Below, in pieces: positions 2,850 to 47,844 of a stretch of 48,941 nt of DNA. The stretch lies in IMG/VR virus record IMGVR_UViG_3300035224_000798, positions 1-48,941 of that record; one strand, written 5' to 3'. The translations under genes were made by a program, and so were the position numbers. The number at the start of each line of letters is the position of its first letter. Positions within the stretch are counted from its first letter, which is position 1. This DNA is from a virus. The notes under the pieces are model-generated. The model made no database searches. It was given only the letters and a program-made list of their open reading frames with translations, and was not told where the DNA came from.

Positions 2850-3154
2850 CCAACATCACCACTCCACCACAACCCCTCTCGCCCTTCTCCTCTGTCATGA
2901 AAATCCATTTCGAACGTCCACACGCTGCACGGCTTTACCAAGCTTTAAGCCAAGACCTATGGCTGCATAGCATCGCCAGCAGTGCATTAACCGACGCTGA
3001 AAAGCTTGCAGCATTGAAGCGTTGGACCGAGACCATCAAAGAAGAGATCGGCGTGCGGCGTCTCTCTCAGATGCAGGACGAGGTCTATTGCTCATTAGCT
3101 GTGAAAGATGCCCACATTCAGGCACAGACCGCTGCATTGAGAGGTGGCAAGTGA
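2846..3154 (+). CDS. Hypothetical protein
   Basis: 102 aa from ATG 2846, which overlaps the methyltransferase stop (ATGA); an ATG at 2840 would add two residues. A Pro/Ser-rich N-terminus is followed by a helical, charged body (DAEKLAALKRWTETIKEE). No family recognised. Its TGA overlaps the next ATG at 3154, so three genes form a coupled chain. Confidence 0.55.
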   Translation: MTNITTPPQPLSPFSSVMKIHFERPHAARLYQALSQDLWLHSIASSALTDAEKLAALKRWTETIKEEIGVRRLSQMQDEVYCSLAVKDAHIQAQTAALRGGK

Positions 3155-12513: not shown

Positions 12514-12657
12514 AGAGTGGAGCATTGCCCATGCTTCTCGAGGCAATGGGCTTACCGCTGATGCTCCGGGCAGCGGAGGACAAACCATCAGGTGATGGAT
12601 GCCCTCATACATTAGGGTCTTTAAAGCCATCGTGCCAAAAGAAAACACGTCTTTCGA
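12514..12657. other. Convergent intergenic region with nested hairpins
   Basis: Lies between the ends of a plus and a minus operon. GGAGCAT (12519-12525) pairs with ATGCTCC (12561-12567). Inside it, either GCCCAT (12527-12532) pairs with ATGGGC (12546-12551) or CATTGCC (12523-12529) pairs with GGCAATG (12542-12548); the two inner stems exclude each other. A further CATCA/TGATG pair follows near 12587-12598. No T-run, so it is probably a structured RNA end or bidirectional terminator-like element. Confidence 0.5.
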
Positions 12658-15390: not shown

Positions 15391-16470
15391 TCAACCAACA
15401 GAAGGCGCGACTAATGCCACAGGGGTGGAACTAGTTGCAGCCAGGTCGAGAGGGAAGTTATGAGCGTTGCGCTCGTGCATCACTTCCATGCCGAGTCCGG
15501 CACGGTTGAGAATGTCGGCCCAAGTGTTTACAACACGCCCTTCAGAAGACTGGATTGACTGGTTAAAGTTGAAGCCGTTCAAGTTGAAGGCCATGGTTGA
15601 CACGCCTAAAGCAGTAAACCAGATACCAACCACAGGCCAGGCAGCGAGAAAGAAGTGCAAGCTACGACTGTTGTTAAAGGAAGCGTACTGAAAGATAAGG
15701 CGACCAAAGTAGCCATGAGCAGCCACAATGTTATACGTCTCTTCTTCTTGTCCGAACTTGTAGCCATAGTTCTGAGATTCTGTTTCAGTCGTCTCGCGTA
15801 CGAGTGAGCTTGTAACCAAACTTCCGTGCATAGCAGAAAAAAGAGAACCACCAAAGACACCGGCGACACCCAACATATGAAACGGGTGCATAAGGATATT
15901 ATGTTCTGCTTGGAATACCAACATGTAGTTGAAGGTTCCTGAGATTCCGAGGGGCATCGCATCAGAGAAAGAGCCTTGACCGAAGGGATAGACGAGGAAC
16001 ACTGCGGATGCAGCAGCAACAGGTGCGCTGTATGCAACACAGATCCAAGGGCGCATGCCCAAGCGGTAGGAAAGTTCCCACTCACGTCCCATATAGGCGT
16101 AGATGCCGATCAGGAAGTGGAACACAACCAGTTGGAAAGGACCGCCGTTGTAGAGCCACTCGTCGAGTGAGGCAGCTTCCCAAATTGGGTAGAAGTGCAG
16201 GCCGATAGCATTCGAGCTAGGCACCACAGCTCCCGATATGATGTTGTTGCCATACATCAGAGAACCTGCAACAGGCTCACGGATTCCATCAATATCGACA
16301 GGAGGTGCAGCGATAAAAGCTACAATAAAACAAATAGTGGCAGCGAGCAGTGTCGGGATCATGAGTACGCCAAACCAACCTACATAAATGCGGTTATCGG
16401 TTGAAGTCACCCAATCGCAAGACTGCTCCCAGCCGGACGCCCTAGATGCGGGCTGAACGGAAGAGATCAT
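15391..16470 (-). CDS. psbA: Photosystem II reaction-centre protein D1
   Basis: 359 aa, full length. All key D1 residues are present in register: Y161 (TyrZ), D170, E189, H190, H198 and H215 (chlorophyll and iron), S264 (QB), H272, H332, E333, D342 and A344 for the Mn cluster, and the A344 cleavage site followed by a 15-residue extension. Residue 130 is Glu (MGREWEL), the state of high-light D1 forms. It has five transmembrane helices and acts in the thylakoid, replacing light-damaged D1 during infection. No psbD is in the window. Confidence 0.98.
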
Positions 16471-18355: not shown

Positions 18356-18538
18356 TCACTTGGTGTAAGTACGTCCTCGATACACGAAGGTGCCGTGGAC
18401 TGGGGCAATTGGAGAAGCAGGTGTGTATTCCACACCGCGATAGTGGGTGTCCATAATACGGGCACGCTCTAGCTCTTTACGAGCACGGACCACATTGCGA
18501 CGCGCACTTTTAACGCTCATGATTGTTAGATCAGACAT
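18356..18538 (-). CDS. DUF4278-like small protein
   Basis: 60 aa. After a basic helix (SARRNVVRARKELERARI) comes HYRGVEYTP and, further on, FVYRGRTYTK, the paired YRG.xY motif of DUF4278 proteins found in cyanobacteria and their phages. Function of the family is unknown. It is a single minus-strand gene with its own terminator. Confidence 0.7.
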   Translation of the reverse strand: MSDLTIMSVKSARRNVVRARKELERARIMDTHYRGVEYTPASPIAPVHGTFVYRGRTYTK

Positions 18539-18845
18539 TGGAAACTCCTAATGAGGGGAAATTTCCCGTTCCTTCAGCACTTACTTGCTTACTTGCGTCT
18601 CCTAATTAGGGCCAGATTAGGCCTTTGTCAGGAGATGAACGTATAACAATTGTAGCAAGAACCTACGGCTTGTGGCAAATGTTACTTAACTGTTGCATTT
18701 AGGGTGCGTCCTCACCTGGATGGTGGCAAGGACGGTCAGTTTCCAGACGTGAGAAACAGCAAAAATCACGTCTCCCTAGGGCCTGGCGCTGTTCTTCTTC
18801 GACCCGGTTGTATAATACACATAACAACAGACATGTGCATGCGGC
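18539..18845. other. Non-coding divergent region
   Basis: About 300 bases between a minus and a plus gene. It holds the promoter-like TATAAT at 18811-18816, an AGATTAGG word at about 18612-18620 and AT-rich stretches at 18639-18690, including GTTATAC on the minus strand, a possible -10 for the 18356 gene. The short frame at 18704-18892 looks non-coding. Confidence 0.5.
18811..18816 (+). promoter_or_regulatory. TATAAT -10 promoter element
   Basis: Perfect TATAAT, 30 nt before the GTG of the 18846 gene. The -35 region is weak (TTCTTC-like near 18792). It would start the plus-strand run that leads into the replication genes. Confidence 0.6.
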
Positions 18846-36983: not shown

Positions 36984-37576
36984 GCGGACAAACAGGAGAA
37001 AACTGGCTTGATGTGCTAACAAGCACTGAATTTGTGCTAGATGAAGATACGAGCAACTCATATCAGAGCTATCGTTTTGTTGACCTAGAAATAAGCGACG
37101 TCACCATTGAGAACTACAAGGAACTATTAGTAGACTCTCTGTCGGAACAAGTCGAAATGTTCATCCCCCCATCAGGAAGCTTTGAAACTGCAGATCTACA
37201 GCGTTATCTAGAGCTCGTCTGCAGCTACGAGACAAGCACTTCTGACTTGGTTTTAGGTCTTTCCCTTGCGGATCAAATTCGGATAACTTTCAGCGATATG
37301 AAAATCAGCACCATCTGTGACCGTTATCCTGAAATTAACTTGTCAGAAAAAAGACGCTACCGTTGCGTGGCTGAATACCTCATACGACAGGAAGAATTGA
37401 CAAAACTGCGCGACAAAGATGGAAAGCTCATAAAGAAAATAGGCAACATGCAAAAAGCAGTGGTACTGTACAGACCGTTGCCAAAATTACTGGAGACTTT
37501 AAAACGCTCAGGCCTCAGTAATTTTATAAAATTAAAAGACGAGACAGAAAAAGTAACTGCTTGCGCAGCTTGCTAA
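36980..37576 (+). CDS. Hypothetical protein, operon gene 2
   Basis: 198 aa, acidic, with helical segments (DLQRYLELVCSYETSTSDLV) and a basic C-terminal part. No family recognised. It starts inside the previous gene's end (ATGA). Ends in a CAAC cysteine pair. Confidence 0.6.
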   Translation: MSGQTGENWLDVLTSTEFVLDEDTSNSYQSYRFVDLEISDVTIENYKELLVDSLSEQVEMFIPPSGSFETADLQRYLELVCSYETSTSDLVLGLSLADQIRITFSDMKISTICDRYPEINLSEKRRYRCVAEYLIRQEELTKLRDKDGKLIKKIGNMQKAVVLYRPLPKLLETLKRSGLSNFIKLKDETEKVTACAAC

Positions 37577-37598
37577 ACTACCGGAAACACTTTTAACT

Positions 37599-37997
37599 AT
37601 GACAAGCCGACGTAACAAAATGCTCACCCACCTGATGAAGGGGACTGTAGGGGAAACAGAGCAGACGCTGATGAAGCTCTCAATTGAGCGCATTTGCGCA
37701 GATATGTGTGATTATTACGCTAAATTCTACAAACTTGAAGGCCCTGGGGTCATGGTCTTTAAACCGCAATCAGAAGATAAGGAGAGTATGTTCTATCTGA
37801 CGGTCGACGGCTTGATTACAGGGTTGAACGACAATAAAGAAAATGAACAGTTAGCGGAAGTCTTTCAAAGTGCTATCAGGCGTGCGGAAGTAATCGAACC
37901 GGACAAAGAATCACTTTTTCTTATTCAAGACGATAAAGAACTTGCGCTAGTACACTACAAACACGACAGTGACGGCAACGGATTCATGATGTTCTGA
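37599..37997 (+). CDS. Hypothetical protein, operon gene 3
   Basis: 132 aa. Starts MTSRRNKMLTHLMKG, then a helix with cysteines (IERICADMCDYYAKFY) and beta segments (GVMVFKPQSED; LFLIQDDKELALVHY). No family recognised. It overlaps the Dam-like gene by one base. Confidence 0.6.
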   Translation: MTSRRNKMLTHLMKGTVGETEQTLMKLSIERICADMCDYYAKFYKLEGPGVMVFKPQSEDKESMFYLTVDGLITGLNDNKENEQLAEVFQSAIRRAEVIEPDKESLFLIQDDKELALVHYKHDSDGNGFMMF

Positions 37998-38620
37998 TGG
38001 AAAAAAGACGCCCCTGGAGACAAAGAAAGGGCTTTTTTGGTAAAATTGCGCATATAGAAGAAGATTGGGTAACACCTACCGAGTATTTACCTTATATAGA
38101 CGCCTTGTTAGGTGATATTGATCTAGATCCTTGTACAACTTATAAAGCAAATCAAGAATTCATTCGCGCAAAAACAGCATATACGCTAAAAGAAGATGGC
38201 ATCAATATAGAAAGTCCTTGGTTTGGGACAACATACGTGTTTCCGCCTACTTATGGACGCTACTCTCTTAAAAAAGAAACTGGTAAATGGCGTTGGGCAC
38301 CACGTGGCGGAACAGGTACAAGCTCTCCATCAGTAATCTGGTTTAAACGTTTATATAAAGAATGGAAGCTGCGTAATGTTTCAGAGGCTTTGTTTTTCAC
38401 GGTACAGCCTGAAATGATGCGAATTTGTCCGGAATTATGGGATTTGCCGGTGTGCATGCCTGCCAAACGTGCACGCTTAATCCATGGTAAGGGACTGTGG
38501 AGGTTTAAAACACCTTTGCATTGGGGTTATTTTGTTTATTTTCCTAAGCTGGAGTATGGTTTTGACCAAGCCCAACGCTTTAATGAAATTTTTTCAAATA
38601 TCGGCAGAATTATCAACTAG
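37997..38620 (+). CDS. Dam-type DNA methyltransferase-like, altered catalytic motif
   Basis: 207 aa. DIDLDPCTTYKANQEFIRAK and LKEDGINIESPW match the N-terminal region of phage N6-adenine methyltransferases of the Dam (PF05869) type. In place of the catalytic DPPY/NPPY the sequence reads VFPPTYGR at residues 81-88, so the site has F-P-P-T-Y. If real, the enzyme is altered or inactive. It may still bind SAM and DNA. Last gene of the 36579 operon. Confidence 0.65.
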   Translation: MEKRRPWRQRKGFFGKIAHIEEDWVTPTEYLPYIDALLGDIDLDPCTTYKANQEFIRAKTAYTLKEDGINIESPWFGTTYVFPPTYGRYSLKKETGKWRWAPRGGTGTSSPSVIWFKRLYKEWKLRNVSEALFFTVQPEMMRICPELWDLPVCMPAKRARLIHGKGLWRFKTPLHWGYFVYFPKLEYGFDQAQRFNEIFSNIGRIIN

Positions 38621-38837
38621 CTGTAAACATATTTCTAAATGTCCCTTCAGGGAAAACAAAACGATCTTCTGTGCGTAATTCTGATTCTAAATTTGGGCGC
38701 TTCTGGGAACGAATTTGTTTTCCCATTGACTGTTCATAGTTTTTTAGAAAACTCAGAGCCGTTCCATCATTGGTAGCGTTACCCATATTGCGATAACGCT
38801 TGTCTACTGTGTAAGAATCGCTAGATTGGAATTGCAT
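38613..38837 (-). CDS. Small hypothetical protein
   Basis: 74 aa, polar and charged (MQFQSSDSYTVDKRYRNMG, KRPNLESELRTEDRFVFP). Its stop end overlaps the Dam-like gene by 8 nt, and its start is close to the divergent 38850 gene. No family recognised; low-hydrophobicity composition similar to the virion-like group. Confidence 0.5.
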   Translation of the reverse strand: MQFQSSDSYTVDKRYRNMGNATNDGTALSFLKNYEQSMGKQIRSQKRPNLESELRTEDRFVFPEGTFRNMFTAS

Positions 38838-38849
38838 GCTTTTATTCTA

Positions 38850-39122
38850 ATGACCCTCACTGAGACGCAAGGACAGATCAGTCAAATTTGTGATGATGTA
38901 AAAGAGCTTCTTTTACACAAAAATAAAAAATACGGCGATTCTGCACTAAATCCAACAAGAATTTTTAGTAATTGCACAGCCGTTGAGCAAATTCTAGTAC
39001 GTATTGATGATAAATTGAGCAGAATCAAGTCTGGCTCTGATTTATTGAGTCATGACGAAGACGTTATTATGGATCTTATAGGATATCTTATTCTTTTGAA
39101 AATCGCATTGAACAGAGGATGA
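38850..39122 (+). CDS. Nucleotide-modification-associated (DUF1599-like) protein
   Basis: 90 aa from ATG 38850 (38826 would add 8 residues inside a divergent gene's start). The segment LLLHKNKKYGDSALNPTRIF has the K-N-x-K-Y-GDSALNP motif of DUF1599, a small MazG-like family common in phages and linked to modified nucleotides. The helix pair with the VIMDLIGYLILLKIA end fits. Possible nucleotide pyrophosphatase-like role; inference. Confidence 0.75.
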   Translation: MTLTETQGQISQICDDVKELLLHKNKKYGDSALNPTRIFSNCTAVEQILVRIDDKLSRIKSGSDLLSHDEDVIMDLIGYLILLKIALNRG

Positions 39123-39123
39123 C

Positions 39124-39297
39124 ATGGATTATGAAGACTTTATACATCACTACACCCCTGAGATTGCTCTTCTTGACGCGATAGATCTTCTAAAAACATT
39201 TCCTTTACTCGGGAGTGCTGTCCTAGACCGGCAGGTGTCTGTGCCCAAAGACGATAAAAGCGACGTAAAGAATGACCGGTCGGATCCCATTCTTTAA
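39124..39297 (+). CDS. Possible small protein antisense to the lysozyme end
   Basis: 57 aa from ATG 39124, two nt after the 38850 stop. MDYEDFIHHYTPEIALLDAI, then a Leu-rich helix and acidic tail read like a protein. It overlaps the lysozyme-like gene's C-terminal part on the other strand (39140-39297). Only one of the two may extend here. Confidence 0.3.
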   Translation: MDYEDFIHHYTPEIALLDAIDLLKTFPLLGSAVLDRQVSVPKDDKSDVKNDRSDPIL

Positions 39298-39934
39298 ATT
39301 TTTTTTCTAGATACTCAATAGCTTTTATCTGATTTGGGGCACCGTTATAAGTCTCAGGTAGGTTCAATAGGCAAATACTAGACGAGCACTTGTGCTCTGT
39401 AAAAGTAGGGATTTTCTTGTCAGGAGCAAGGTACATATGAAGTTCTGACTTTCGTCTATCCTTAAGTACGTCCCCACCTGACAGCCAATACTGATTTATA
39501 TATGGGCTCCACTCAGATATGATTTCTGTTTTAGAAGCATGTCTGTTGATTAATTGCAATAGCTTTGATTTGCTAAACGCAAGGATACCTATGCTGTGAG
39601 CAAAACTCAAGATAGCAGCACGTCTGTTTCTGTTTAACCCTACATAAACATAGAGGGAAACAGCCTGTGAAAACTCTTTTAAATCCTCTACAAGCTGCTT
39701 ATACGCTTCTTCCTGCGTTATCCTGTCATTACCAGATACAGGCCGCTCACCGAGCTTTGAGCTCCCATATCCGACACGCCATATACTCTCTCCATATTCC
39801 TTATAAGCACCAAAACGCTCCATACCAATAGGTGTACGGGGCTGTGTGTACGCTTTTATAAGATTGATGCCTCTTTGAGTAAGGAATGGGAATCCTTCCC
39901 AAGAGGATGACTTAGAACCTTTATGGGACTTCAA
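39140..39934 (-). CDS. GH24-like lysozyme with altered active site
   Basis: 264 aa. ERFGAYKEYGESIWRVGYGS aligns with the T4-lysozyme-type region (aY.D..G..TIGYGh), and RNRRAAILSFAHSIGILAFS, LLQLINRHAS continue the fold (cf. RR.Al..f.fN.G...f..S.ll..lN). The usual catalytic Glu (EG before aY) and the YGH histidine are not evident, so the active site is altered. The family is conserved in cyanophages. Expected role: peptidoglycan cleavage in lysis or as a tail-associated enzyme. Confidence 0.7.
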   Translation of the reverse strand: MKSHKGSKSSSWEGFPFLTQRGINLIKAYTQPRTPIGMERFGAYKEYGESIWRVGYGSSKLGERPVSGNDRITQEEAYKQLVEDLKEFSQAVSLYVYVGLNRNRRAAILSFAHSIGILAFSKSKLLQLINRHASKTEIISEWSPYINQYWLSGGDVLKDRRKSELHMYLAPDKKIPTFTEHKCSSSICLLNLPETYNGAPNQIKAIEYLEKKFKEWDPTGHSLRRFYRLWAQTPAGLGQHSRVKEMFLEDLSRQEEQSQGCSDV

Positions 39935-40304
39935 CCGTGCCTGTGTAGCTCACTTCAGAATAGCCGTCGAGGCGTAAAAGCACAATGTAGTCGTCACTTG
40001 CACTTGTTACCGTAATACCTACTACGCCTTTACCTTTTCCAGCTTTTGAGATATCAAAAAAGCGTTGGTAGCCTGTAGGAGCGGAACCTGAAGTGTAGTC
40101 ACTGTCTTTGAAGATCTCCAGTGAGTTGACACCTACTGTTGCGCTCAGGTCGACTGTAATGTCCCCAGTAGAAGAAGGGTTTACCTTAAAACCACGGATA
40201 TTCAACCCTCTGTCACCTGCGGAAGTAGACCCTTCATAAGTCACGTCAGAACCTGCGTCCACAGAAAAGGTATCGAGAGTACCTTGAATAATGCGAGTAG
40301 CCAT
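39921..40304 (-). CDS. Structural-like beta protein
   Basis: 127 aa, beta-rich with Gly/Ser/Thr/Asp repeats (TRIIQGTLDTFSVDAGSDVT; TSASDDYIVLLRLDGYSE). Composition and low cysteine resemble tail or decoration proteins. It overlaps the start of the lysozyme-like gene by 14 nt. No family recognised. Confidence 0.6.
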   Translation of the reverse strand: MATRIIQGTLDTFSVDAGSDVTYEGSTSAGDRGLNIRGFKVNPSSTGDITVDLSATVGVNSLEIFKDSDYTSGSAPTGYQRFFDISKAGKGKGVVGITVTSASDDYIVLLRLDGYSEVSYTGTVEVP

Positions 40305-40309
40305 GGTAG

Positions 40310-40525
40310 TTAGGAAACTTGTCCGATAGTTGAAAAATTAAAAGAGATATCGGCATCAATGCCGTGATCTTTGAGCACGCCTAGAAACATCTGGCGATCC
40401 ACAGCTTTTTGGTGCAGCATTTCAACGAATGCCTCTTCAAGATCCTCACGATCAAGATTTTGAATTGCTAATGATGCTGCGTGGATCTGGAATTCCACGT
40501 CCACCGGAAGCTTTAATGCATCCAT
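40310..40525 (-). CDS. Small hypothetical protein
   Basis: 71 aa, helical and acidic (DREDLEEAFVEMLHQKAVDR), five nt before the structural-like gene. Looks like a small phage helical protein, possibly an assembly factor. No family recognised. Confidence 0.6.
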   Translation of the reverse strand: MDALKLPVDVEFQIHAASLAIQNLDREDLEEAFVEMLHQKAVDRQMFLGVLKDHGIDADISFNFSTIGQVS

Positions 40526-40589
40526 GGTAAGCCTTAACCTTACAGATTATCCTAACAGCGCTGAATTAAAGAGCAACAAAGAGCTGTAG

Positions 40590-40718
40590 CTACTCAGGGC
40601 GCTTACGCATATGAGCGTAAGGTGGGTACTTCCAAGTCTTGGACTGGCGTAATTTAGACATGCTCACGTAATATGCGCTGGTGTACAACACCATAAACAG
40701 CAACATGAAAACTACCAT
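40590..40718 (-). CDS. Very small membrane protein
   Basis: 42 aa from ATG 40718 (GTG 40724 adds two). MVVFMLLFMVLYTSAYYVSM is a membrane span, followed by a basic segment (KLRQSKTWKYPPY) with aromatic residues and HMRKRPE. This tail recalls small cyanophage membrane peptides. The inverted repeat CTTACGC/GCGTAAG lies within the gene. Confidence 0.5.
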   Translation of the reverse strand: MVVFMLLFMVLYTSAYYVSMSKLRQSKTWKYPPYAHMRKRPE

Positions 40719-40761
40719 GAACACCTTTAAACTTCTCTATAGAGTTTAGGCAGGGTAAGCC

Positions 40762-41559
40762 ATGACGATTGAGACGGATCAACTTAATGCATTTATGCTA
40801 CGTGCTGTAGGCGGGGTAAGCAAAACCAGTTTATGCAGAGAATGGCAAGAGATGTACGACTGGTCTGACGATGATGTAAGACGTGCAATAGCACTGTGTT
40901 CTTTTAAAGAGAAACCCAAAAAACTTGACTATTCCTATCTCTATGATTTAAAACTTGACGAAAAAGCAGTTGCGTTTCCTTACAAAAATACTCAATTTTA
41001 CATAAAAGAACATTTTCTTCTTGATTCTGAATGCGATGCCTTAATTGAAATAATCGATCAAGGCCTAGTCCCTTCAACTGTTTCTGACGCAAAAGACACA
41101 GGACAAATTTCAGAATCCAGGACAAGCAGCTCTGCTGATCTCAACAGACTTAGCAATGAAACATGCAGGGCAATTGACGATTTAATTTGTGAATTTATGG
41201 GCTTAGAAACATTTTTAGGGGAAGCAATACAAGGACAAAAATACACTAAAGGACAGCTTTTTAAAGAGCATTGGGACTTTTTTGACCGCTGGTCTGAGCA
41301 CTATAAATGTTATTGCGAATGGATGGGGCAAAGAACATGGACGACTATGGTTTACTTAAATGACGTAAAAGAAGGAGGAGAAACTTACTTTAAATATTTA
41401 AATGCCAAAATTAAACCACGCAAAGGCACACTAATTACATGGAATAATTTGTTTAAAAATGGAAAAGTAAATAGAAAAACAATGCACGAAGCTTTGCCAC
41501 CTACTAGTGGCGAGAAGTACATAATCACTAAATGGTGGAGAAGCTGGCCTCTTGTTTGA
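40762..41559 (+). CDS. Prolyl 4-hydroxylase-type Fe(II)/2OG dioxygenase
   Basis: 265 aa. Facial triad: H170-W-D172 in EHWDFFDR and H242 in MHEALPP, then K252 ten residues later (EKYIITKWWR), the 2-oxoglutarate-binding lysine of the P4H family. An N-terminal helical part (1-75) precedes the jelly-roll domain. It would hydroxylate proline or another residue; the target is unknown. The plus-strand gene is flanked by minus-strand genes, as if inserted as a unit. Confidence 0.85.
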   Translation: MTIETDQLNAFMLRAVGGVSKTSLCREWQEMYDWSDDDVRRAIALCSFKEKPKKLDYSYLYDLKLDEKAVAFPYKNTQFYIKEHFLLDSECDALIEIIDQGLVPSTVSDAKDTGQISESRTSSSADLNRLSNETCRAIDDLICEFMGLETFLGEAIQGQKYTKGQLFKEHWDFFDRWSEHYKCYCEWMGQRTWTTMVYLNDVKEGGETYFKYLNAKIKPRKGTLITWNNLFKNGKVNRKTMHEALPPTSGEKYIITKWWRSWPLV

Positions 41560-41847
41560 TCACCACTTCACTTTGTGGCTCCAGTAGCGAGCAGACATTT
41601 TATCCGGTTTTGCATCTTGAGCATCGTGACGTGCATAGTAAGAGCTTTTTCTAGCCTTTTCTTTTGCTGTCTTAGGGCTCTTACCTGCGCCTTTAACGCC
41701 TTGTTGCCCGAAACGAATAAGTTTTTCCTTACCATCCTCACAGGCTTTTACTACATGTGATTTTGTAGGATGATTTGGTGTTTTTTTAGGCTTATTGCAC
41801 TTCATCCTCTGTTTAGCTAACCTTTTTGCTTTCGCTCGATCAGCCAT
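41560..41847 (-). CDS. Conserved basic phage protein (DUF6321-like)
   Basis: 95 aa, basic. ACEDGKEKLIRFGQQGVKGA followed by KSPKTAKEKARKSSYYARH and KMSARYWSHKVKW is a signature found in cyanophages and marine bacteria (DUF6321 by memory). The HKVKW end is strongly conserved in the family. Function unknown; likely nucleic-acid or virion associated by charge. The stop abuts the end of the P4H gene on the other strand. Confidence 0.7.
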   Translation of the reverse strand: MADRAKAKRLAKQRMKCNKPKKTPNHPTKSHVVKACEDGKEKLIRFGQQGVKGAGKSPKTAKEKARKSSYYARHDAQDAKPDKMSARYWSHKVKW

Positions 41848-41848
41848 A

Positions 41849-42016
41849 TCAAACCTTTATTACGCCTGTGGCAGCTTTTGTAGCAATGTTGTCACTTGGC
41901 ATACCATATAACGCGAAATTGCCTGGGTCTTGAACACGGGAATCTTGAAGTCCAGTCATGAACTTTTCAAGAAACTCTTCAGGGTCAGGCCGCGATCCGG
42001 CTGGTTTTTTGTTCAT
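41849..42016 (-). CDS. Small hypothetical protein
   Basis: 55 aa (MNKKPAGSRPDPEEFLEKFM, then LYGMPSDNIATKAATG), Pro/Ala-rich. It overlaps the HNH gene's end by 32 nt and stops 2 nt before the DUF6321-like gene. No family recognised. Confidence 0.5.
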   Translation of the reverse strand: MNKKPAGSRPDPEEFLEKFMTGLQDSRVQDPGNFALYGMPSDNIATKAATGVIKV

Positions 42017-42395
42017 TTTCTTGATAAACGGTTGATGTTTCTGGCACCGGAAGCTTTATAGAGCAGGGTTTTAGCTCCATCCACTCCTTGATTTTATCAA
42101 ACCTTTCTTTTGTAAATTTTGGATTATCTATATTGTACCAATTATCTAATGATATGGACCCTTTTGCCTTATTACAGCTGCTGCAACAACAACACATATT
42201 GGAACGCACGTTGTGACCGCCCCTGTGTTTGGACAAAATGTGATCAATGGTTGCGGAAGATTCTGTTAATTCCTGTGCACAATAGGCACAGCTCCAATCC
42301 CAGGCTTCAAAGATGTGTTTTCTAAATTTTCGACGAGCATGCTTAGGACTGAGAACAATGAGATTAACTAATAGATCCTGCTCGCAATGAAACAC
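41985..42395 (-). CDS. HNH endonuclease
   Basis: 136 aa with a GTG start. C36xxC39 (CAYC), D51-H52 in IDHILSKHRGG, N66, and C71xxC74 followed by NKAKG form the HNH fold with two zinc knuckles (beta-beta-alpha metal). HNH enzymes cut DNA; phage members often act as homing endonucleases or in packaging. It sits among structural genes on the minus strand and is free-standing. Confidence 0.85.
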   Translation of the reverse strand: MFHCEQDLLVNLIVLSPKHARRKFRKHIFEAWDWSCAYCAQELTESSATIDHILSKHRGGHNVRSNMCCCCSSCNKAKGSISLDNWYNIDNPKFTKERFDKIKEWMELKPCSIKLPVPETSTVYQENEQKTSRIAA

Positions 42396-42518
42396 GTGTG
42401 TATCCCTGCCTCTGAAAAAACTTTAGGCTGCATAAACTTGCCCTGTACGCTAAGCTCCAAAGAGAACAGCGACATAAAGGGCTGACCTTTTCCGTTACTA
42501 CTTCGACACTTTTTTAAA

Positions 42519-43178
42519 ATGCCCTGTTTATCGGCTTTTGCAACGCCTATTTTTATTGAAGAACTAAATCCGCCTGCACAAGTTGAGCGAGAAATGCTCA
42601 GATATGTGGAAAAATTTTACAATTCAACAAAAGAAAAAGCAAAAACAGTTGCAAATATCACCGGTGACGTAAATAATGAATTTCTTCTGCACAAACAACC
42701 TGAATTTTACTGGTTAAATGAACAAATAAAATATGCATGTGAGCATTACATGTGCGAAATAGGCGTTGACCTGGAAAAAGTATCTGTATACGCGCAGAAA
42801 GCATGGCCAGTAATTTGTGCAGACGAAGGCTATATCCCGTCACATGCACACAAAAATTCGGTTATTAGTTGCGTTTACTATCTAAACGAACCCTTAAATA
42901 ATAGCGGTTGTTTAAGACTGGAGTCTGACAACTGTTTGAATTTACTTCCGATTGTGTTCGAAGATACTGACCTCGCATACAAAGAAGTCTGTTTACCTCC
43001 TGTAAAAAACAGACTCATTTTGTTTCCATCAGCACTAGAACATTCTGTAACAACATACTATGGAGGACGCCCTCGTTTCTCTGTTTCTTATGATTTAATT
43101 GTGGTCAGTAAAGAAGCCCCTAGCAGCGGTGATATAGAACATTGGGTAATGGACCCTATGTACTGGGAAAAGCTGTAA
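42519..43178 (+). CDS. Fe(II)/2OG oxygenase-like protein
   Basis: 219 aa. SHAHKNSVISCVYYLN gives H109 and H111 (HxH variant of the facial triad), H175 in LFPSALEHSV is the distal histidine, and R184/R186 follow for 2-oxoglutarate. The pattern fits the phage family annotated as putative 2OG oxygenase (TIGR02466-like). Substrate unknown. It is the fourth such gene in the window and is followed by the tRNA pair. Confidence 0.75.
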   Translation: MPCLSAFATPIFIEELNPPAQVEREMLRYVEKFYNSTKEKAKTVANITGDVNNEFLLHKQPEFYWLNEQIKYACEHYMCEIGVDLEKVSVYAQKAWPVICADEGYIPSHAHKNSVISCVYYLNEPLNNSGCLRLESDNCLNLLPIVFEDTDLAYKEVCLPPVKNRLILFPSALEHSVTTYYGGRPRFSVSYDLIVVSKEAPSSGDIEHWVMDPMYWEKL

Positions 43179-43190
43179 AGTGTCTAGCAT

Positions 43191-43263
43191 GCTCTCTTAG
43201 CAATCTGGTGAATGCACCGAACTCATAATTCGGCTGAGGTGGGTTCGATTCCCTCAGAGAGCA
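43191..43263 (+). tRNA. tRNA-Met (CAT anticodon)
   Basis: 73 nt. Acceptor GCTCTCT/AGAGAGC, D-stem GCA/TGC, anticodon stem CCGAA/TTCGG with loop CTCATAA (anticodon CAT), T-arm with loop TTCGATT and one T-T mismatch in the stem. Discriminator A. A CAT anticodon could also belong to a tRNA-Ile with modified C34. Two nt separate it from the next tRNA. Confidence 0.85.
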
Positions 43264-43264
43264 C

Positions 43265-43369
43265 CGGGAATTAGCTCAGTTTGGTAGAGCGCCGTCTTTG
43301 GGAGGCGGATGATGGTTTGTCCTCCGCTGCCCAGAGCATCTGTCGCAGGTTCAAATCCTGTATTCCCGA
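43265..43369 (+). tRNA. tRNA-Pro (TGG) with 36-nt variable region
   Basis: 105 nt. Acceptor CGGGAAT/ATTCCCG, D-stem GCTC/GAGC, anticodon stem CCGTC/GGCGG with loop TTTGGGA (anticodon TGG), T-stem GCAGG/CCTGT with loop TTCAAAT. All arms are tRNA-Pro-like, and the discriminator is A. The variable region 43309-43344 is 36 nt instead of about 5. Removing roughly 31 nt gives a normal tRNA-Pro. The extra segment shows complementary words (GCGGA/TCCGC, GATG/CATC) but no clear arm. It may be a long variable arm, an insertion or a decaying gene. Confidence 0.75.
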
Positions 43370-43633
43370 TTACTTCTTTAATCTGTTAGCCCATTCGAAA
43401 TTGATTTTCATGACAACTGCGTCGAGAGCTGACTCTTCTTCTGCAGGATCATAATCAGCTTCCTCCAAAAGCTTTAAAAGAAAATAATGCAGTTTTTCTG
43501 ATACCCAACACAAATCCTCGTCAGGTACGTCCTTGAGAATAGCGTCTAAACGCAGTTGCCTACTAGGATATCGCAGATCTTCAGCAATCAATTCAAGTGC
43601 GGCGTAGCGTCCCTTATTCAACTCTCCGAGCAT
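43370..43633 (-). CDS. Small hypothetical protein
   Basis: 87 aa, helical and acidic (RYAALELIAEDLRYPSRQLR, LCWVSEKLHYFLLKLLEEAD). Ends exactly next to the tRNA-Pro. No family recognised. Preceded by the similar-sized 43639 gene with a 5-nt spacer. Confidence 0.6.
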   Translation of the reverse strand: MLGELNKGRYAALELIAEDLRYPSRQLRLDAILKDVPDEDLCWVSEKLHYFLLKLLEEADYDPAEEESALDAVVMKINFEWANRLKK

Positions 43634-43638
43634 CTTAA

Positions 43639-43878
43639 TTAGCCTAACGCAAAATTAATAGGGCATGCTTCGGTTGAATCTGAAGTATCTTCTGGCAATT
43701 TAGGAGATTCTTCTAAAATACGCTGTTGAACAATTGAGATACACTCAATAGCTCCTGTAACTTTCAGATACATCTCTTTTTCCCGCATCAAAGACTCTTC
43801 AGACGACCTAATCTTATCGGCAAGAGCGGCTTGCTGCTCTTTGAGCTTTATTTCCGTATCAAGAATTATGTCTTGCAT
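43639..43878 (-). CDS. Coiled-coil hypothetical protein
   Basis: 79 aa with a clear coiled coil (LDTEIKLKEQQAALADKIRS then SEESLMREKEMYLKV) and an acidic end. Small coiled-coil proteins next to lysis genes are sometimes spanin-like or assembly factors; no TM or signal is seen here. Function unknown. Confidence 0.6.
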   Translation of the reverse strand: MQDIILDTEIKLKEQQAALADKIRSSEESLMREKEMYLKVTGAIECISIVQQRILEESPKLPEDTSDSTEACPINFALG

Positions 43879-43906
43879 AGTAAGGCTTGGTTTTTCTGAG
43901 TATAGC

Positions 43907-44725
43907 TCACAATTTACTAAAATTCACCCACCCCCACGCGCTATAACCCCCACCATGAAATAATCTTTTATCCATTTTCTCCATGCTATAGCGCACTTCT
44001 TTCCCGCAATCGCCCCCTTTGTCAGTCCATCCTCCTTTATCTTGCCTTATCACACCAAAAGGGTCCATGCATAACCAATCGTTTTTGTCATAACCGTAAA
44101 TAACTACGTAATAGGCAAGTCCATGTGGAGACGTCCAGTGCCCTCGAACAACAACTGCGCAGGGAACAGGCATCCCACTATCAATTAAATCTTTGATGTC
44201 GTCAGGACCCAAACAACAGGTGTGTTTAGCGCTCACACCGAGATCCAACAGAGTTAAACGATTGTAGTAATGATGTCGACCGTCACGGTGTTTTTTTGCT
44301 GCCTCTAAATATTGTTCATGTGTTTGAATATTGCCTAATTCTAAATATTTAAGGCACATTGCTAAGCAAGCGACTTGGCAGAAAAAATAGTCAACAGAGT
44401 GCACTGAAGGAGCTTTGTTGCTAAAAAAAGGGAAATTAGGAAGATAGTGTAAATCCCCCTCAACTACGCAGTTATACTCACGCTCTTCAGTCTCAGCTTT
44501 GACTCTCCATAGTTTATTCTCAATCCACCATTTACCTAATCCACATTTAATGTGCGTATGTTGCTCTGTTTTATCAAGTATCTCACAATTCGGAAGAGTA
44601 CGTGCTGCACGGACACGTGCTTTCTCTCCTGACTTAATTTTATAGCGGGAGACTGGTCTTTCAAGAAGCAGGGCATCTGTCATTGTCTCTAACGCAAAAA
44701 CAGATCCCACTGCCAGATCAATCAT
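43907..44725 (-). CDS. C39-like cysteine peptidase, possible lysis enzyme
   Basis: 272 aa. An SH3-like N-terminal part (about 1-80) is followed by YFFCQVACLAMCLKYLELG, in which C116 lies seven residues before M123 as in peptidase_C39_2 (C..ts.aM.l.y). Near the end, PHGLAYYVVIYGYDKNDWLC and MDPFG resemble the ...GHyvvv.GYd....DP motif, with Tyr where His usually stands (an H lies four residues earlier, H201). Family known in cyanophages; could cleave peptides in the cell wall. The start overlaps the holin-like gene by 4 nt. Confidence 0.7.
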   Translation of the reverse strand: MIDLAVGSVFALETMTDALLLERPVSRYKIKSGEKARVRAARTLPNCEILDKTEQHTHIKCGLGKWWIENKLWRVKAETEEREYNCVVEGDLHYLPNFPFFSNKAPSVHSVDYFFCQVACLAMCLKYLELGNIQTHEQYLEAAKKHRDGRHHYYNRLTLLDLGVSAKHTCCLGPDDIKDLIDSGMPVPCAVVVRGHWTSPHGLAYYVVIYGYDKNDWLCMDPFGVIRQDKGGWTDKGGDCGKEVRYSMEKMDKRLFHGGGYSAWGWVNFSKL

Positions 44726-44967
44726 TTAGGTATAGTAGGTGCTTTCTTTTCCTCAACTATAGGCTTTTTTGTTGCTTTTGTACTATCGTCTTTTCGACTG
44801 ACACCGTAAACAGCTAAAACGGAGGTTACTAATGACGAAATAAAAGCAGCATCAATCTTTGCTGCTCCCATATAGCTTGCCGTCAGCATGGCAAGAGCCC
44901 AAGTGAGCACACCAGCTGGTACTAGTGTGGAAAGACTTTCTTTCAATCTATGCCCGGAGTTACTCAT
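44722..44967 (-). CDS. Holin-like two-TM protein
   Basis: 81 aa. Two hydrophobic spans (LVPAGVLTWALAMLTASYMG and AAFISSLVTSVLAVYGV) with a short charged turn and a basic C-terminal tail (KKPIVEEKKAPTIPK). Size and topology match class II holins, which open the cytoplasmic membrane. Encoded directly upstream of, and overlapping, the C39-like peptidase on the minus strand, suggesting a lysis cassette. A divergent AT-rich spacer separates it from the exported-protein genes. Confidence 0.65.
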   Translation of the reverse strand: MSNSGHRLKESLSTLVPAGVLTWALAMLTASYMGAAKIDAAFISSLVTSVLAVYGVSRKDDSTKATKKPIVEEKKAPTIPK

Positions 44968-45033
44968 AATATATATATTTTACTTCCGTACGTCCTCAAT
45001 GCTAAAATTAAAACACAAATAGCAAGCATAAAA

Positions 45034-45516
45034 ATGTGGTATTTAGTTGCGTTGTTTACCCTTATTGCAATGCCCGCAAGAGCTGATATATCACATAAAT
45101 TACAAAGTTCTATTCAATTACAAGTAGACGCGGCTGCGACTAATGTTACTAGAATCGGGTCTTCACTTTCAATTTCAGGTGTGGGTGTAAATACGACTGA
45201 TGGCACGACTGCAGGAACGATCTCTACGGGAACAATTTCCAGTGGCGTATATTCTCCAGGTACTATTTCAGCGTCTCAGGCAACAAGTGGTGAGACCTTC
45301 TCGTACAGTTCTGCTTTTACGCAAGGAGACGCAGTACCTACTGCGGCAGTAACAGTAGGGGATGCAGCGAACTTTAGTAATATTACTTCGACCAGTGCAG
45401 GTACAGCAGGGTCATTAGCAGGGACAATCAGCACATCAGGAGCGATCACCGTGACCGCAGGCGGAGCTGGAACCGTTGCTACGGGCCAATATGTAAGTGA
45501 CATTACGGCAAAATAA
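45034..45516 (+). CDS. Exported G/S/T-rich protein
   Basis: 160 aa from ATG 45034, where a signal peptide begins (MWYLVALFTLIAMPARA, cleavage after ARA); the frame is open from 44950 but that extension overlaps the divergent gene. The mature part has GTIS repeats (GTISTGTISSGVYSPGTIS) typical of beta-helix or fibre-like secreted proteins. It abuts the next gene. Conserved hypothetical in cyanophages by memory. Likely surface or periplasmic in the host. Confidence 0.65.
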   Translation: MWYLVALFTLIAMPARADISHKLQSSIQLQVDAAATNVTRIGSSLSISGVGVNTTDGTTAGTISTGTISSGVYSPGTISASQATSGETFSYSSAFTQGDAVPTAAVTVGDAANFSNITSTSAGTAGSLAGTISTSGAITVTAGGAGTVATGQYVSDITAK

Positions 45517-45948
45517 ATGAAGCGCTTACTTGTGCTTATAGGGTTTTTGCTAGGAACCCCTATACACGCAGTGCCTGTGGTGCCTAATTTTACTCAAGGA
45601 AGTTTAACTTCGAAAAGTGAGACAACTAGTGTAGTAACAGAAGTCATAAATTCAGTTGACTACAATACTGGATATCAGTATTCTGTAACAGGTACTAATA
45701 TTAAACACTCTGGGAACAGCTTAGTTCCAGGCGCTATAGCAACAAACGGAAACACCGTAGAAGGCATAACTAGTACATGGACAACTCTGAACCCAGCAAC
45801 AAAACCAAGTTGGACACTAGCAAATCCAGGAGCTGCTTTTCAGTTTACAGAGACGATGCAAGGCCCAGGTCTCAGCAACCAGACAATTATTCAAAGAAAA
45901 ACAGAGATAAAAAGTGTCACGGAAAGCACCTCTATATTTTCTCAATAA
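45517..45948 (+). CDS. Exported hypothetical protein
   Basis: 143 aa. Signal peptide MKRLLVLIGFLLGTPIHA (cleavage after IHA), then PVVPNFTQGSLTSKSETTS and TEVINSVDYNTGYQYSVTG, a beta-rich Thr/Ser/Asn protein with no cysteine. Starts directly after the 45034 gene. Resembles cyanophage proteins of unknown role. It overlaps the frame of the next gene. Confidence 0.65.
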   Translation: MKRLLVLIGFLLGTPIHAVPVVPNFTQGSLTSKSETTSVVTEVINSVDYNTGYQYSVTGTNIKHSGNSLVPGAIATNGNTVEGITSTWTTLNPATKPSWTLANPGAAFQFTETMQGPGLSNQTIIQRKTEIKSVTESTSIFSQ

Positions 45949-46601
45949 CTGCAGCATTCTTTCTGCCTATTAATGCACATGCCGGAAACGTGGGAGGAGT
46001 CAGTGCAACTGCGGCACCAGTCGCTAATAGCTCCGGGTCGGTGACCAACCAAGCAATACAGGTGTTACAAGGACCATACATAAATAATACTTATGGAAAC
46101 GGTGTTAGTTGCCAGGGTCCTGTTTTTAACCTGAGCCCATACTTGACACGTACAGGTTCATTTCAAAAACCCTATGAGCCGTATTACAACAGCCCTGTGT
46201 ATGACACAAGCGATCTCAACGAAGACGGTATTTTAGACAATCCTGGGTCGATTTTGTATCAGGTTCCTGTGCGCACAGGGCAAAAATCAAATTATAGTTG
46301 GAATGGAGGTTTGTCTGCCACCATTTCTATTCCTCTAGATACCAGCTTACAAAGACGCTGCAAAGAGGCTGCGGATGTACAGATAAAACTACAAAAACAA
46401 GTATTAGCAAATCGAAGATTAGATTTTGAGATTGCCCGCTTACGCAACTGCTCACAGTTGTTAAAAGAAGGCGTAAGTTTTCATCCTGAATCTCCTGCTT
46501 TTAAGGTATGCGCTGATGTAGTAGTAGTTAATCCTGCAAACGCAGAAATAAAACAACACACTCACTCTATTTATTTAACACCCGACGCAAAGCAAGAATA
46601 G
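45777..46601 (+). CDS. Exported protein with unclear start
   Basis: The conserved-looking protein begins with a hydrophobic signal segment (HLYIFSITAAFFLPINAHAG) at about 45927-45986, then NVGGVSATAAPVAN and a Gly/Asn-rich mature part with cysteines (GVSCQGPVFN) and a C-terminal helix (RLDFEIARLRNC). No ATG, GTG or TTG lies in frame within about 150 nt upstream of the signal; the ATG at 45777 gives a 172-nt overlap with the upstream gene. A non-AUG start (ATT 45936), a frameshift or a sequence error are alternatives. Part of the exported module with 45034 and 45517. Confidence 0.6.
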   Translation: MDNSEPSNKTKLDTSKSRSCFSVYRDDARPRSQQPDNYSKKNRDKKCHGKHLYIFSITAAFFLPINAHAGNVGGVSATAAPVANSSGSVTNQAIQVLQGPYINNTYGNGVSCQGPVFNLSPYLTRTGSFQKPYEPYYNSPVYDTSDLNEDGILDNPGSILYQVPVRTGQKSNYSWNGGLSATISIPLDTSLQRRCKEAADVQIKLQKQVLANRRLDFEIARLRNCSQLLKEGVSFHPESPAFKVCADVVVVNPANAEIKQHTHSIYLTPDAKQE

Positions 46602-47382
46602 TTCGATTTCTATCACGCTGCTGAAGTCTTCGCTGAGACACAGATTCTATTTTTATGGGTTTATTAGAAAGTGCTGCTACTTTTTTAGTAATTTTTTTTA
46701 TTAGTGGTTTTATAAGTTTTAAAAGTAACTCGGATAGTGGTTTTGCCAATAGTGCAGAAGTCGTTGCTACCAGTGCGATGGCCGCAGTAGTACTGATAGC
46801 TTGAGGGGGAGGTAAATACTCTTCCGTGATAGCTACATGTAAGGGCACCGGTTCTATTACGGTTATACACTTTTCTCCTGTCCACTCGTATCCGATAATA
46901 ATGGCAGTTTGATCCGCTGTGCGCTGCCCAACAGCCAATGCTTCTTTGGAAGGACAATTAATTGGTGTTGCATCGAAACTAACGGATTCTTTTTTTTTAA
47001 CTGTTTTTACAGCAGGTACTGGTAGAGAATCAGGAATTGATGTGGTATTCGGAACATTCTTACTTCCTGCGTCAGTGTTAGGCACTGAGGCGGGAGGAGT
47101 GTAAATAAACTTACCAGGAGTAAAATTTAAAGGTGTGAAAGAAGGTAAATTACCGTCACAAAAAACTTGATTGCCCCTAGCATCATCTTCTAAGATGTTT
47201 TTTGAAGAACTTAAATTTTTGTGAGATTGAACGCAGCCTGGAATATTGATTAAAGGTACTCCTATGTCAACGGTGACAGGAGAATGTTGAAAGAACGGTT
47301 GCTTATTTGTTTCAATACTATATGTGCTAAGCGGGGTAAAAATATTAATATCTCCAATAACCAACTCAGGTATTTTAACCAT
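46567..47382 (-). CDS. Hypothetical membrane-associated protein
   Basis: 271 aa. Beta-rich, Pro-rich N-terminal half (LSTYSIETNKQPFFQHSPVT; IPGCVQSHKNL), then EWTGEKCITVIEPVPLHV and, near the end, a membrane span (AISTTAAIALVATTSALLA) followed by a very basic tail. No N-terminal signal. The tail-anchored topology would place the N-terminal half on one side of a membrane. Overlaps the convergent exported-protein gene by 35 nt and the 47382 gene by one base. Conserved in cyanophages by memory; role unknown. Confidence 0.6.
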   Translation of the reverse strand: MVKIPELVIGDINIFTPLSTYSIETNKQPFFQHSPVTVDIGVPLINIPGCVQSHKNLSSSKNILEDDARGNQVFCDGNLPSFTPLNFTPGKFIYTPPASVPNTDAGSKNVPNTTSIPDSLPVPAVKTVKKKESVSFDATPINCPSKEALAVGQRTADQTAIIIGYEWTGEKCITVIEPVPLHVAITEEYLPPPQAISTTAAIALVATTSALLAKPLSELLLKLIKPLIKKITKKVAALSNKPIKIESVSQRRLQQRDRNRTILALRRVLNK

Positions 47383-47690
47383 TACTCAACAAATAACGCA
47401 GTTCCCGTTTGCTTGGGAAGTGTTATCTTGTTCTGCTCGAAAAGTTCTGGAAGATCTATCTTAAATTTATTGTCAATATGCGTAACTATTTTTCTTGCTG
47501 TTTTCTCAAGCTCTTTATCATAAGTTTTTTCTAGAGAAAGTTTAAGCGCATAATACTGCCCTGTAATCATTGACTGTATATCGTTCGGTACTTTTAAAAC
47601 AATATACAAAAGAGCGACCGTATTGGCCAACGTTAATACAAGCAGTAAAGATTGAGGTATATTAAGTTTTTTCTTTTGATTAGCCCTCAT
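47382..47690 (-). CDS. Single-TM hypothetical protein
   Basis: 102 aa. Basic start (MRANQKKKLNIPQS), a membrane span (LLLVLTLANTVALLYIVL) and a helical outer part (DIQSMITGQYYALKLSLEKT). Topology resembles the 17413 protein. Co-transcribed with 46567 and 47680, with which it overlaps. Function unknown. Confidence 0.65.
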   Translation of the reverse strand: MRANQKKKLNIPQSLLLVLTLANTVALLYIVLKVPNDIQSMITGQYYALKLSLEKTYDKELEKTARKIVTHIDNKFKIDLPELFEQNKITLPKQTGTALFVE

Positions 47691-47844
47691 CGGCGGGTAG
47701 TGGTTCGTTGCCTTCGGCTAGCCAGGCAAGATATTCTTGATATTCATCACTGTTATTATGATCTCCTAAAGTCATAATAAGTTGATCTTCAAGCCTAACG
47801 ACAGTGTAAACAACACCATCAGCGTTATTCGATAATTTGTACAT
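47680..47844 (-). CDS. Very small acidic protein
   Basis: 54 aa (MYKLSNNADGVVYTVVRLED, then HNNSDEYQEYLAWLAEGNE), acidic, beta then helix. Overlaps the 47382 gene start by 11 nt. The ATG lies 4 nt before the stop end of the tail-fibre gene. Role unknown. Confidence 0.6.
   Translation of the reverse strand: MYKLSNNADGVVYTVVRLEDQLIMTLGDHNNSDEYQEYLAWLAEGNEPLPADEG

Follow-up and report, generated by a model that had tools for sequence, protein, structure and literature searches.

A tRNA-Pro gene of an apparent cyanophage interrupted by a 31-nt inverted match to a distant site in the same DNA

A long stretch between the anticodon and T arms is found in the class II tRNAs, those for Leu, Ser and Tyr. 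In one virus record (IMGVR_UViG_3300035224_000798) a stretch of this kind occurs in a tRNA-Pro, and thus several questions are raised. Is it a working tRNA of altered shape, or an ordinary gene that has been interrupted? If it has been interrupted, where did the additional nucleotides come from, and by what route? The window, that is, the whole stretch of 48,941 nucleotides that was analyzed, looks like cyanophage DNA, since it encodes psbA, a PolA-type DNA polymerase, thymidylate synthase and primase. The psbA gene (photosystem II D1), a cyanophage marker, is full-length and lies at 15391-16470 on the minus strand.

The interrupted gene and its uninterrupted relatives

Three features define the locus.

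43265-43369, plus strand: tRNA-Pro(TGG), interrupted, 105 nt against a normal 74 nt (74-nt orthologue in L003 and L004)
43310-43340, plus strand: insertion of 31 nt into the variable loop (it can be shifted by 2 nt, as far as 43312-43342), absent in L003 and L004, with 30 of its 31 bases in an inverted copy at 12560-12590
43191-43263, plus strand (43191-43265 in the ARAGORN call): neighbouring tRNA with the anticodon CAT, intact (ARAGORN and Rfam)

The Rfam tRNA model (RF00005) spans 43265-43369 on the plus strand from end to end with a score of 56.3 bits, against a gathering threshold of 29, and treats the variable region as a long insertion. Direct reading gives the acceptor stem CGGGAAT/ATTCCCG with the discriminator A, the D arm GCTC/GAGC, the anticodon arm CCGTC-TTTGGGA-GGCGG with a TGG anticodon and G37, and the T arm GCAGG/CCTGT, the anticodon and T arms being separated by 36 nt (43309-43344). 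The original prediction had described just such a tRNA-Pro and had proposed a covariance-model check; both the full-length Rfam match and the direct reading agree with it. The bacterial proline identity set (C1-G72, A73 and the UGG anticodon) can be read from the sequence and, together with G37, gives what we take to be a typical bacterial tRNA-Pro. ARAGORN does not call the 105-nt gene and finds only the adjoining CAT tRNA in that place. The latter was called tRNA-Met; its counterpart is tRNA-Ile2 in the related phage Sf-FS3 and tRNA-Met in others, and it may be either Met or a lysidine-modified Ile.

Two IMG/VR contigs, L003 and L004, were reached through the protein encoded upstream of tRNA-Pro. 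They are 99% identical to the window over 37136-43311, 100% identical for the next 53 bases and 91-93% identical thereafter. In both of them tRNA-Pro is 74 nt long with a variable loop of 5 nt; ARAGORN calls it, and its Rfam score is 65.9 bits. In an alignment of tRNA-Pro orthologues the variable loop is short in L003, L004, L013, S-TIM5 and EF1, so that the long variable arm is kept in none of those compared; the S-SM2 row was misplaced, its annotated coordinates being out of register with the gene as aligned, and was left out. The tRNA-Pro(UGG) of cyanophages S-TIM5 and S-SM2 is the same gene with the same anticodon, but it is annotated, unlike that of the window, at the normal length of 74-75 nt without an insert. 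Because the site is empty in L003 and L004 and the loop is short in other phages, the 31 nt were recently inserted into a gene that is otherwise ordinary. An insertion was among the readings offered by the original prediction, and the comparison with related phages that it had suggested thus yields an empty site in two near relatives, each with a normal tRNA-Pro. The opposite event, a deletion in L003 and L004, is ruled out, since the normal length is common to phages.

Two insertions and two distant copies

Does the 31-nt insertion stand alone? In a 10.5-kb alignment to L004 only two indels exceed 3 nt, one being the 31-nt insertion and the other a 22-nt insertion located 51 bases beyond it. 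No single-base indel was seen over the same alignment, which indicates that the window sequence is not noisy. Both insertions have a partner elsewhere in the window; neither the second insertion nor either of the donor-like copies figured in the original prediction.

43394-43415, plus strand: 22-nt insertion 2 at the 3′ end of the 87-aa gene, shifting its frame (equivalent placements 43392-43413 to 43394-43415), absent in L003 and L004 and, by comparison, in L013
43370-43633, minus strand: 87-aa gene of unknown function, its C-terminus altered by insertion 2 (homologue comparison)
12560-12590, minus strand: donor-like copy 1, 30/31 identical to the 31-nt insertion; folds into a hairpin and occupies a short gap between converging genes
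2893-2914, minus strand: donor-like copy 2, 21/22 identical to the 22-nt insertion

The product of the 87-aa gene has no Pfam match. Its homologue in L013 ends with GLTD, as does the uninserted form in L003 and L004; the 22 nt were therefore gained in the window, where they shift the frame, and their loss in L003 and L004 is ruled out. Sequence comparison thus gives good support to the view that both insertions were gained by the window. Exact searches of IMG/VR with the insert cores revealed neither insertion in any independent record. A coding similarity (VMKI.FE) was also considered as the origin of the 22-nt repeat and rejected: the motif is absent from relatives of the 87-aa gene, and hence was not inherited there.

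The 31-nt and 22-nt pairs are the only repeats of at least 20 nt with at most one mismatch in the whole window, and matching 22-mer positions number 12, as compared with a mean of 0.03 in first-order random sequences. As both repeats fall on the only two sizeable indels, at the same spot, they are not due to chance. The donor-like copies have exactly matching ends: identity to each of them (30/31 and 21/22) stops precisely where the insertion stops, on both sides. With slashes marking the junctions, insertion 1 reads GGA/TGATGG...GCATC/TGTCGC on the plus strand and its donor ACC/TGATGG...GCATC/AGCGG, while insertion 2 reads CAGT/TGTCATG...TTCGAA/TGGGCT on the minus strand and its donor CTC/TGTCATG...TTCGAA/CGTCC. 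Each insert starts with TG and is followed in the target by another TG; the TG starts of the two inserts face each other from opposite strands. The junction homology of each insertion is these 2 nt, at one junction only. The two inserts have no sequence in common. Donor 1 folds as DNA into a hairpin (z −2.1), a structure seen neither in the 22-nt insert nor in donor 2. The donors lie 31 kb (copy 1) and 40 kb (copy 2) from the insertion site. It is these paired inverted scraps that are the interesting part of the tRNA-Pro locus.

How common are such sequences and such events? Exact searches found no more copies of either insert core in IMG/VR and none of the 31-nt core in GTDB genomes, and BLAST of the 31-nt insert against 50,697 phage records gave a single match at chance level (E = 4). 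No close relative covering 12560 or 2893 was found; relatives of the neighbouring genes (61-81% protein identity) have no homology at the site, and no relatives were found for the 104-aa gene. Among 132 related locus pairs there was no similar insertion event, only chance matches of 10-12 nt, and nothing was left when shifted placements were tried for inserts of at least 14 nt. This argues for a process that is rare or unique to the present case, although the loci are at most about 15 kb, which puts most distant donors out of reach of the test.

Candidate origins of the insertions

How could two unrelated pieces have been placed side by side? The locus is probably an ordinary cyanophage tRNA-Pro(UGG) into which an inverted copy of 31 nt was recently inserted, together with the nearby copied piece of 22 nt, by template switching primed with TG. 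An outline of such a process would be as follows: during break repair or replication, 3′ ends terminating in TG would pair with a distant TG on another template. The facing 3′ ends would copy 20-29 bases from it and then rejoin at the starting place. Copying would have run from 12560 to the tRNA and from 2893 to the 87-aa gene. The source of the 31 nt could be the stretch 31 kb away in the same genome or its counterpart in a close relative of the phage. One repair event at a single break or gap may have made both insertions, as the TG starts on opposite strands and facing each other would allow. Each insert has a single mismatch to its donor-like copy, a little more than a self-copy made very recently would be expected to show; error-prone copying, later mutation or a related phage as donor could account for the differences.

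Template switching of the same kind might instead have occurred outside the phage. It has a small chance of being right that a polymerase changed templates during amplification, or that an assembly was mis-joined, and that both inverted pieces arose in this way while the phage gene itself is normal. Chimeras of multiple displacement amplification (MDA) are mostly inverted joins, commonly primed by homology of at least 2 nt (PMC1855051), and both inserts resemble them in orientation and in the 2-nt homology; the core searches of IMG/VR, moreover, found no second record with the insertions. However, the described MDA chimeras are two-part joins, mainly less than 10 kb apart and with an intervening deletion (PMC1855051), whereas each piece here could arise only if synthesis left its template and resumed at precisely the base it had departed from, with donors 31 and 40 kb distant. 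A consensus contig would require both insertions in most reads, a k-mer graph does not easily yield a 31-nt piece with 2-nt joins, and the aligned contig is otherwise free of single-base indel errors. Alternatively, a very small mobile palindromic repeat, like the small dispersed repeats of cyanobacteria or REPINs, could have jumped into the tRNA with a 2-bp duplication of its TG target, which is improbable. Cyanobacteria are known to contain tiny mobile repeats (Elhai, 2008, as cited in PMC4390886), and REPINs provide a comparison for the donor 1 hairpin (PMC3116915). Empty sites, precise ends, a possible 2-bp duplication and the fair hairpin at 12560 would all suit such an element, and many copies would be expected of it; yet the window holds just two, and exact matching with the cores found none elsewhere in IMG/VR or GTDB (the genome may be partial). 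In addition, donor 1 is followed on its right by AG and not by the TG that a duplicated target should leave, and the adjacent 22-nt insertion behaves alike while sharing no sequence and forming no hairpin. Clustered templated insertion is therefore favoured over a mobile element: one process copying arbitrary pieces accounts for both inserts, and a repeat family for one. The remnant of mobile DNA contemplated in the original prediction is accordingly not supported: the genome holds a single further copy, the searches found no others, and the neighbouring insert, though of like kind, is unrelated in sequence.

The remaining readings concern what becomes of the transcript. It is very unlikely that this is a working tRNA-Pro whose long variable arm is kept for a function such as escape from a tRNA-cutting defence of the host. 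All its proline identity features are intact, and folding under a cloverleaf constraint, the insert forming an arm, still gives −36.4 kcal/mol; but the arm is present in no relative, the insert matches another part of the phage sequence almost base for base, and a second, unrelated scrap lies next door in a protein gene. Furthermore, the predicted best fold of the 105-nt tRNA (−42.7 kcal/mol) sequesters the anticodon arm, pairing CUUUGGGAGGCGGA of this arm with UCCGCUGCCCAGAG of the insert. When 3000 random 31-nt segments of the window were substituted for the insert, 1.7% of them gave folds as good as that with the actual insert, and these predicted fold statistics argue modestly against a working long-arm tRNA. 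In the cell, tRNA folds during transcription and is also modified. The suggestion of a working tRNA with an altered shape is weakened by the 74-nt gene of the relatives (half of the refuting result named in the original prediction), the unconserved arm and the predicted concealment of the anticodon arm. It is hardly credible that the 31 nt are a tiny intron removed from the transcript. The flanks without them do make a normal tRNA, as in L003 and L004; yet 31 nt is far below the size of a group I or II intron, the Rfam match at the site is to tRNA only, with no intron family, and the insertion site lies 3′ of the anticodon stem. We know of no established case of a protein-spliced tRNA intron in bacteria. 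As the predicted best fold pairs the insert with the anticodon arm, the insert probably harms the tRNA, leaving a damaged or weakened gene. It is likely to be a tolerated scar rather than an adaptation.

Comparison with known systems and other observations

The favoured templated insertion has a likeness in eukaryotes, where in template switching (MMBIR or polymerase theta end joining) short pieces of the genome are copied with exact boundaries, short junction homology and clustering, as here. The present setting is a phage; the homology of 2 nt is on one side only, and nothing of the original sequence between the pieces has been lost. The inverted chimeras of strand displacement (phi29 MDA and the T7 replisome) likewise involve inverted joins primed by a few bases, and the phage of the window also encodes a PolA-type DNA polymerase; unlike the insertions of the window, the described MDA chimeras do not come back to their point of departure. 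The small dispersed repeats of cyanobacteria and REPINs are similar in size, in precise insertion and in the hairpin of one copy, and differ in that no copy family was found here and that the second insertion is unrelated in sequence. As for class II tRNAs, the long region here was recently inserted into a class I tRNA-Pro and is unconserved; the interrupted gene represents no new tRNA class.

No description of a templated-insertion pathway of the polymerase theta or MMBIR kind in phages was found. It is possible, if doubtful, that phages repair a replication intermediate that has broken or stalled by directing both its facing 3′ ends to distant templates, with two matching nucleotides (TG) as the link, and leave paired inverted scraps behind. 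If this is true, such a pathway can break tRNA genes. Provided that the paired scraps are genuine products of repair, they offer a clean and recent phage case of clustered templated insertion. The near-identical relatives with empty sites make the insertion mechanism testable. The case shows that a copying error can make a tRNA look exotic, and it cautions against taking the long variable arms of phage tRNAs from metagenomes for new biology.

Several other features of the region and its relatives were observed. Beyond roughly 44.0 kb (43750-47705) the window and L004 are about 91% identical, down from 99%, and this drop, a few hundred bases past the insertions, suggests a recombination boundary in the aligned sequences. 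A segment of 27-28 nt, AAGGCTAAATAACTAACTATCGGCA, located upstream of the homologue of a 147-aa gene (L054:3973 and L068:4536), is present or absent between close relatives, and no second copy of it was found within the locus. Elsewhere in the window, a glutamine riboswitch (Rfam RF01739, 46.3 bits) lies at 18563-18643 on the minus strand, just upstream of a 60-aa ORF at 18356-18538 on the same strand (MSDLTIMS...HGTFVYRGRTYTK); judging from this arrangement, the ORF may encode a riboswitch-controlled small protein of this phage.
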